Assembly: GCA_028821845.1 (NCBI GenBank)
Contig: JAPKEZ010000006.1
Span: forward strand, 1 to 32,918
From: Planctomycetota bacterium
Lineage (GTDB): Bacteria; Planctomycetota; UBA1135
Reading direction: 5' to 3'
Length of the DNA: 32,918 bases
Both the position numbers and the translations under genes were made by a program. Within the stretch, counting starts at the first letter, position 1. Every line of letters begins with the position of its first letter. The notes under the pieces were generated by a model. That model ran no database searches, had not been told where the DNA came from, and saw nothing but the letters and a program-made list of their open reading frames with translations. This document shows, one piece after another, positions 22,994 to 24,501 of this stretch.

Positions 22994-23068
22994 GCCGGCA
23001 TGGCCAAGTGGCTAAGGCATTGGATTGCAAATCCAACATCCCCAGTTCGAATCTGGGTGCCGGCTCCA
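22994..23068 (+). tRNA. tRNA-Cys (GCA)
   Basis: GCCGGCA...TGCCGGC acceptor, anticodon arm TTGGA-TTGCAAA-TCCAA, T-arm CCCAG-TTCGAAT-CTGGG, U73, encoded CCA. Confidence 0.96.
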
Positions 23069-23099: not shown

Positions 23100-23175
23100 G
23101 GGGAGGTAGCCCAATGGCAGAGGCAAAGGACTTAAAATCCTTCCAGTGTGGGTTCGAGTCCCATCCTCCCTACCA
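23100..23175 (+). tRNA. tRNA with UAA anticodon (tRNA-Leu), 5-nt variable loop
   Basis: GGGGAGG-TA-GCC-CAATGGCAGA-GGC-A-AAGGA-CTTAAAA-TCCTT-CCAGT-GTGGG-TTCGAGT-CCCAT-CCTCCCT-A-CCA. Complete cloverleaf, encoded CCA, anticodon TAA. Confidence 0.88.
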
Positions 23176-23193: not shown

Positions 23194-24501
23194 ATGTCAG
23201 CAGACACCAACAATAATTCAGATGCCCTTAGCGCCATAGATAGTCGCACAGGCAAAGAATATACGCTACCTATCGAGAACGACACTATTCCTGCGACTAA
23301 ATTGCGCGAGATTAAGGTCAACGACGATGATTTTGGCATGCTGTCTTATGACCCCGCTCTCAAGAATACAGTCACATGTAAAAGCTCAATTTGCTTTATT
23401 GATGGCGAAAAAGGAATTTTAGAATATCGCGGTTATCCAATCGAAGAGACTGCGTCCAAAGGGACTTACCTTGAGATATGCTGGCTGCTACTGAATGGCG
23501 AGCTTCCGACTGCCGCTGAACTTGATATGTTCCAAGCCGAGATCAGCGCCGCCACCTATGCGCCGCAAGATATCCAAAATCTTCACGATGTGTTCAACAA
23601 AAACTTGCACCCGATGGCCATGCTCGAATCAGCACTGGCAGCTTTGGGCGGCGAGTTTGATGACATAGATGAAGTACTCAGCGCCGAATCTCGCCACCAG
23701 CAAATCATTAGATTGATTGCTCTTACTCCAGTACTTGCCGCGATGGGTTACCGTCATCGTAATGGCTTAGGCCCGGTAGAAGTAAACACTGATTTGTCAT
23801 ACAGCAGCAACTTCCTGCATATGATGCTTAGCCGCGAAGGCCGCGAACACGAAATCCATCCGGCTCTTGAAAAAGCAATGGATGCCCTGCTTATCCTGCA
23901 TGCTGATCACGAGCAAAACTGTTCGGCAAATGCAGTGCGCGCAGTTGGCTCGTCACACGTCAATCCTTACTCAGCTGTTTCAGCTGGTGCATCTGCACTG
24001 CACGGTCCACTTCATGGTGGAGCTAATCAAGCGGTACTCGAAATGCTTAATCAAATTGACAGCGTCGAAGATGTTCCGGCTTTCTTAGAGTCATGCAAGA
24101 ATGGAGAGCGACGCTTAATGGGCTTCGGTCACCGCGTTTACAAAAACTACGACCCACGAGCTAAAGTTATTAGCGAGTTGGCGGCGAATGTTTTTGACGT
24201 GGTTGGTCACAATCCCAAGCTCGATATTGCCAGCGCATTAGAAAAAGCTGCGGTTGCAGACGATTACTTCTCTAGCCGCAAGTTGTTTCCGAATGTCGAC
24301 TTCTATTCGGGGCTAATTTACTCGGCGATGGGTTTTGACTCGCGCATGTTCACAGTGTTCTTCGCAGTTGGCCGAATGGTCGGCTGGCTAGCTCACTGGA
24401 ATGAAATGATGGCTGATAGTTCCACGAAAATCGTGCGTCCGCGCCAGATTTACACTGGCTACGAACGCAGAGATTGGGTCGAGGCTGACGACCGTAAGTA
24501 A
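23194..24501 (+). CDS. gltA: Citrate synthase
   Basis: Start set at MSADTNNN (23194) because the longer ORF (23146) would lie inside the tRNA. GILEYRGYPIEE, HADHEQNCSANAVRAVGSSHVNPYSAVSAG, ALHGPLHGGANQAVLEML, MGFGHRVYKNYDPRAK. Confidence 0.97.
   Translation: MSADTNNNSDALSAIDSRTGKEYTLPIENDTIPATKLREIKVNDDDFGMLSYDPALKNTVTCKSSICFIDGEKGILEYRGYPIEETASKGTYLEICWLLLNGELPTAAELDMFQAEISAATYAPQDIQNLHDVFNKNLHPMAMLESALAALGGEFDDIDEVLSAESRHQQIIRLIALTPVLAAMGYRHRNGLGPVEVNTDLSYSSNFLHMMLSREGREHEIHPALEKAMDALLILHADHEQNCSANAVRAVGSSHVNPYSAVSAGASALHGPLHGGANQAVLEMLNQIDSVEDVPAFLESCKNGERRLMGFGHRVYKNYDPRAKVISELAANVFDVVGHNPKLDIASALEKAAVADDYFSSRKLFPNVDFYSGLIYSAMGFDSRMFTVFFAVGRMVGWLAHWNEMMADSSTKIVRPRQIYTGYERRDWVEADDRK

Follow-up and report, generated by a model that had tools for sequence, protein, structure and literature searches.

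Leucine tRNAs are long-armed everywhere except in animal mitochondria, according to a 2023 review (PMC9976931). In Escherichia coli, A73, A15-U48, G18G19 and A20a are essential for leucylation, neither the sequence of the long arm nor its folding correlates with it, and armless variants stay active (PMC9976931). Truncated E. coli tRNA-Leu molecules are leucylated without the long arm (Larkin et al. 2002, reviewed in PMC9976931), although these are laboratory constructs from which the anticodon arm is missing too. Animal mitochondrial tRNA-Leu(UUR) is a natural tRNA-Leu(UAA) of class I, and A73 and A14 serve in its charging (PMC9976931), but it is organellar, has its own mitochondrial LeuRS and carries a floppy anticodon arm. 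A tRNA-Leu(TAG) with a short variable loop was reported from a bacterial genome in 2019, in a mycobacterial tRNA cluster, where it is an extra beside a class II isoacceptor, whereas the gene described here is in all likelihood the only reader of UUA (PMC6582537 for the cluster). Annotated phages with a class I tRNA-Leu include Pseudomonas phage ZC03, cyanophage P-RSM6, Cronobacter phage LPCS28 and Mycobacterium phage Tourach, all with the short variable loop seen here. Mycobacteriophage Gaia carries a tRNA-Leu(CAA) reported as replacing the host gene (PMC10865867); that gene is 83 nt long, hence class II, and was set aside as an in vivo proof.

The present gene lies in a stretch of 32,918 nucleotides (the window), which is contig 151 of a 1.83-Mb Planctomycetota MAG that is 85% complete. 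Whether the short form was already well known in this lineage had been raised in an earlier, sequence-only reading of the same DNA. Our literature search found the lineage case undescribed, with one passing mention of a short tRNA-Leu (PMC6582537), and older subscription phage papers may say more; the form itself is nevertheless widespread and not private to this genome.

Structure and classification of the short tRNA-Leu(UAA)

ARAGORN, a check that the sequence-only reading had proposed, calls a tRNA-Leu with anticodon TAA. The Rfam tRNA model RF00005 matches 23100-23172 at 60.5 bits (gathering cut-off, 29 bits) over model positions 1-71 of 71, with the cloverleaf complete. The minimum-energy fold of the naked strand is not a cloverleaf, so that support for the cloverleaf comes from the covariance model and from conservation. 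The features of the locus are as follows.

22994..23068, + strand: tRNA-Cys(GCA), conserved neighbour upstream (ARAGORN; synteny)
23100..23175, + strand: class I tRNA-Leu(UAA), 76 nt, CCA encoded (ARAGORN; Rfam RF00005; family conservation)
23100..23106, + strand: 5' strand of the acceptor stem, pairing with 23165-23171
23107..23125, + strand: leucine-type D-arm in the class I core form, the core being that of phage class I genes
23133..23135, + strand: anticodon UAA, in the loop CTTAAAA (ARAGORN)
23143..23147, + strand: variable region CCAGT, 5 nt, where class II has its arm; U48 pairs with A15
23172, + strand: discriminator A73, an A in all parsed class I and class II relatives
23194..24501, + strand: citrate synthase gene gltA, frequent family neighbour downstream (ORF, tblastn synteny; name by sequence resemblance)

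The anatomy given in the sequence-only reading (stems, C13, loops, CCAGT, A73 and G1-U72) was correct throughout when set against ARAGORN, Rfam and the sequence. The acceptor stem is GGGGAGG/CCTCCCT with G1-U72 as its first pair, and the core consists of U8, A9, a 3-bp D-stem (GCC/GGC), C13.A22, A14, A15, G18G19 and A20a, the D-loop being CAATGGCAGA. G1-U72 is the commonest state among class I genes (17 of 20 distinct genes in the family and 66 of 109 in phages) and is rare in class II relatives (1 of 29). U8-A14, A15-U48, G18G19, A20a and A73 are all retained, and the leucine identity set of E. coli (A73, A14, A15-U48, G18G19, A20a) is complete in the family alignment.

Bacterial class II tRNA-Leu(UAA), such as Streptomyces bldA, the E. 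coli tRNA and a planctomycete gene discussed below (L058), have the same anticodon, A73, U8-A14, A15-U48, G18G19, A20a and 3-bp D-stem, and those of relatives also share part of the acceptor arm and gene neighbourhood. The window gene differs from them in having no long arm (5 nt, against the variable region of at least 10 nt that defines class II) and in its core. With its 5-nt variable loop, C12-G23, C13.A22 and A20a, it fits a class I tRNA-Leu group of phages and bacteria, a grouping defined in the present analysis. The core TAGCCCAA...GGCAGAGGC is found here and in most phage class I tRNA-Leu; in contrast to the phage genes, the window gene is chromosomal, single-copy and housekeeping, and its acceptor stem is unlike that of most of them.

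Other identities were considered and rejected. An allo-tRNA (8/4 or 9/3, with a long arm) is ruled out by the 7/5 geometry and short loop, and a suppressor or stop-codon tRNA by the anticodon, since UAA reads UUA and not a stop. A mitochondrial origin was dismissed because this is a chromosomal bacterial gene at a class II locus, with no relation of descent as far as tested.

Conservation in the family and probable decoding of UUA

The class I gene is present in 25 of 26 genomes of the family, spanning 16 genera, the GTDB-named members being Planctomycetota MAGs with UBA1135 among them. The window gene is identical in two further species of its genus, and all stems of the family genes are paired, with compensatory changes; a gene conserved, paired and covarying to this extent is not a chance match. 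The sole family genome with neither form (G019) is 75% complete. Searching the 26 genomes with two patterns, the looser of which covered class II forms with encoded CCA, turned up no class II tRNA-Leu(UAA), and there was none among the tRNAs recovered from three of them (G000, G015 and G007). Among the long tRNAs listed for two 90%-complete relatives there were class II tRNA-Leu for CAA, CAG and UAG, and none for UAA. Sister families present the opposite picture, as an order-level search with the same pattern returned 62 genomes outside the family with a tRNA-Leu(UAA), all class II. The genome of the window itself has 32 tRNAs, of which the class II members are Leu (CAA, GAG, UAG), Ser and Tyr and the only tRNA-Leu(UAA) is the class I gene; the genome-wide search for a second, class II copy that had been advised thus came back empty for genome and family alike. 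Two family genes (L056:1291-1364 in G016 and L057:1496-1571 in G017) depart from the common CCAGT with A9: their variable regions are GTGGT and GTGTT and they have G9, which may reflect an early form of the core or an alternative one.

Across 24 genes of the window, UUA accounts for 172 of 994 leucine codons (17%). A tRNA-Leu(CAA) with C34 cannot read UUA under normal wobble rules, so that the short tRNA should be the only UUA reader. The meaning of the codon was examined in SecA, UvrB and LeuRS at positions for which class II relatives show 80% conservation or more; these relatives have leucine at 18 of 21 UUA, 49 of 50 UUG and 42 of 46 CUN positions. Over all positions, leucine was matched at 60% of UUA, 64% of CUN and 70% of UUG codons. 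The sequence-only reading had called the codon live, and both its use in the window and the leucine found at UUA sites in relatives agree.

LeuRS was detected above cut-off in 29 of 30 genomes searched. A change in this enzyme had been thought worth looking for, but no LeuRS residue was common to class I lineages as against class II lineages. When 13 LeuRS of the family were set against 11 of class II lineages, seven residues proved specific to the family; they were scattered and none recurred in other class I lineages, and an adapted LeuRS was therefore rejected; no adaptation would be expected, as the same enzyme still charges class II tRNA-Leu. It is proposed that LeuRS, which continues to charge three class II tRNA-Leu, would read the short tRNA via A73 and the D-loop/T-loop elbow (A14, A15-U48, G18G19 and A20a), the long arm being unneeded. 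Loss of the arm would have been accompanied by a remodelled core (A9, C12-G23, C13 and a variable loop that is mostly NMAGU), which may allow a leucine-type D-stem of 3 bp to stack within a class I body.

Taken together, we consider with high confidence that the window gene encodes a functional class I tRNA-Leu(UAA), the sole UUA reader of the family, which replaced the class II form and is charged by the ordinary LeuRS. That the short tRNA is instead dispensable or the remnant of a mobile element, and that UUA falls to a class II tRNA absent from the assemblies, draws on the fact that the family genomes are all draft or MAG assemblies, 73-90% complete. A class II copy could indeed be absent from an 85% complete MAG, but not plausibly from all 26 genomes, and neither the conserved synteny and stems nor the lack of phage genes around the short tRNA in the window fits a remnant, which we regard as very unlikely. 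A reassigned UUA, with the short tRNA charged with another amino acid, is less credible still. It could appeal to the short arm and UAA anticodon in a class I body and to the 3 of 21 conserved UUA positions at which relatives lack leucine, a share slightly above that of UUG in what is a small sample. Against it stand the leucine matches at UUA, 60% overall and 18 of 21 at conserved positions, and the full E. coli leucine element set. SerRS, moreover, depends on a long-arm tRNA.

Locus and origin of the gene

When the short gene was sought beside tRNA-Cys in relatives, as had been suggested, tRNA-Cys proved by synteny to be its conserved upstream neighbour; 31 bases separate the two in the window. 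A promoter scan of the + strand gave nothing above chance, and a TATAAT stands 13 nt ahead of tRNA-Cys; the short gene is presumably expressed. Class II genes of family f8 adjoin an inverted tRNA-Cys, or gltA-like or pepA-like genes, and the latter two also border the family class I gene. In G027 (family f3), the class II gene L058 directly follows tRNA-Cys, with the orientation that the pair has in the window, and shares with the family class I genes the acceptor stem GGGGGAG/CTCCCCT with G1-U72. The neighbours common to these class II genes place the class I gene at the ancestral tRNA-Leu(UAA) locus, where the switch would have happened.

The two halves of the gene differ in their affinities. 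In the acceptor, the family genes differ from G027 at 1.3 of 14 positions on average, and from the nearest phage gene at 3.8. Across the core (positions 8-26 and 48), nothing separates the family from phage class I genes (minimum distance 0), whereas class II relatives differ at 4-5 of the 19 positions, the near-universal change being A9, C12-G23 and C13.A22 in place of G9, G12-C23 and G/A13.A22. A tree of the arms only groups the family genes with the order's class II genes (SH-aLRT 96), weakly, as it uses 34 columns, in a 68-row set that also contains acceptor-selected non-planctomycete rows. The non-planctomycete genomes had been fetched with a GGGG acceptor pattern, and their acceptor similarity, being thus selected, was not used. 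Judged by these comparisons the gene appears to be a mosaic, with arms like those of the relatives' class II gene and a core like that of phage class I genes. The sequence-only reading had described a tRNA-Leu minus its variable arm, which holds for leucine type and arm loss but leaves out the changed core. It had also excluded an isoacceptor with a mutated anticodon; the arms are indeed closest to class II tRNA-Leu(UAA), and core and arms match tRNA-Leu and no other family, so that this candidate was discarded.

In our reading, the core changes are what a short variable region costs structurally, whether they were reached by change in place or by conversion with a phage gene. In an origin by transfer, the class II gene would not have lost its arm on its own: a phage class I tRNA-Leu(UAA) would have taken its place at the native locus, by insertion or gene conversion, and would still serve as a LeuRS-charged decoder of UUA. 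This is a possibility to be taken seriously, if somewhat doubtful. The 19-nt core identical to that of phage genes speaks for it, as do the abundance of class I tRNA-Leu in phages and its occurrence, in four of the sampled Planctomycetota genomes, within phage-like tRNA arrays; two of these genomes, G207 and G466, also show class II. The acceptor, anticodon and T arms nonetheless group with the order's class II genes and away from most phage genes, the acceptor stem with G1-U72 is shared with L058 next to its tRNA-Cys, and tRNA-Cys, gltA or pepA also flank the class II genes of f8.

Class I tRNA-Leu genes in phages and other bacteria

The class I pattern occurs on at least 120 IMG/VR contigs, where the genes read were tRNA-Leu(UAA) with one stop-anticodon call. 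Class I tRNA-Leu genes also exist for CAA, GAG, CAG and UAG. A tRNA array in genome G413 (L269:1481-1831) holds four consecutive class I tRNA-Leu genes (UAA, CAA, GAG and CAG), and the short form thus covers most leucine anticodons. Escherichia phage GreteKellenberger (T5-like) encodes a 77-nt tRNA-Leu(UAA) with a short loop (L383:553-629); its divergent D-arm makes it a looser relative.

In a sample of the phylum, 43 of 392 genomes have the class I pattern. All 6 sampled genomes of family f15 and all 3 of f43 matched the class I pattern, with no class II seen, and four other Planctomycetota genomes match both forms. MAGs of Coriobacteriia, Rubrobacter, Acidimicrobiales and Chthonomonadaceae gave class I only, by the same pattern; an Armatimonadota MAG is among the carriers of the class I form. 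Class I-only calls outside the family of the window are provisional, because 3 of 11 control genomes escaped the pattern entirely. It is conceivable, though unlikely, that in bacteria at large class I tRNA-Leu replaces class II time and again, with phages spreading or templating it and with escape from tRNA-cutting defences or toxins that recognise the long arm as its advantage, leaving several lineages with the short form as their only UUA decoder.

In the family genome G015, a unit of about 1.4 kb is repeated with 79% identity on contigs 3 and 2 (L436:1253-2680 and L437:1273-2705). It carries an XRE-ImmA/IrrE-like gene, named by resemblance, and after it a leucine-like class II tRNA of 85 nt that has the alanine anticodon UGC and lacks G3:U70; the unit may be a small mobile element bearing a tRNA decoy.

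Implications

The function of this tRNA seems ordinary and its form unusual, and the form, widespread as it is, seems to be undescribed as such. If the reading preferred here is right, nature would provide a counterpart to the in vitro results in E. coli and a compact LeuRS substrate, the purpose of the class II arm would become directly testable in nature, and annotation pipelines that assign leucine by arm length may misjudge short genes. The GreteKellenberger tRNA would be a convenient laboratory test case, its host being E. coli K-12. The long extra arm, an apparent hallmark of leucine tRNAs, would then be dispensable in nature, and for a common codon this bacterial family would rely on a short-armed tRNA-Leu that is most likely its sole, essential UUA decoder, charged by an ordinary LeuRS.
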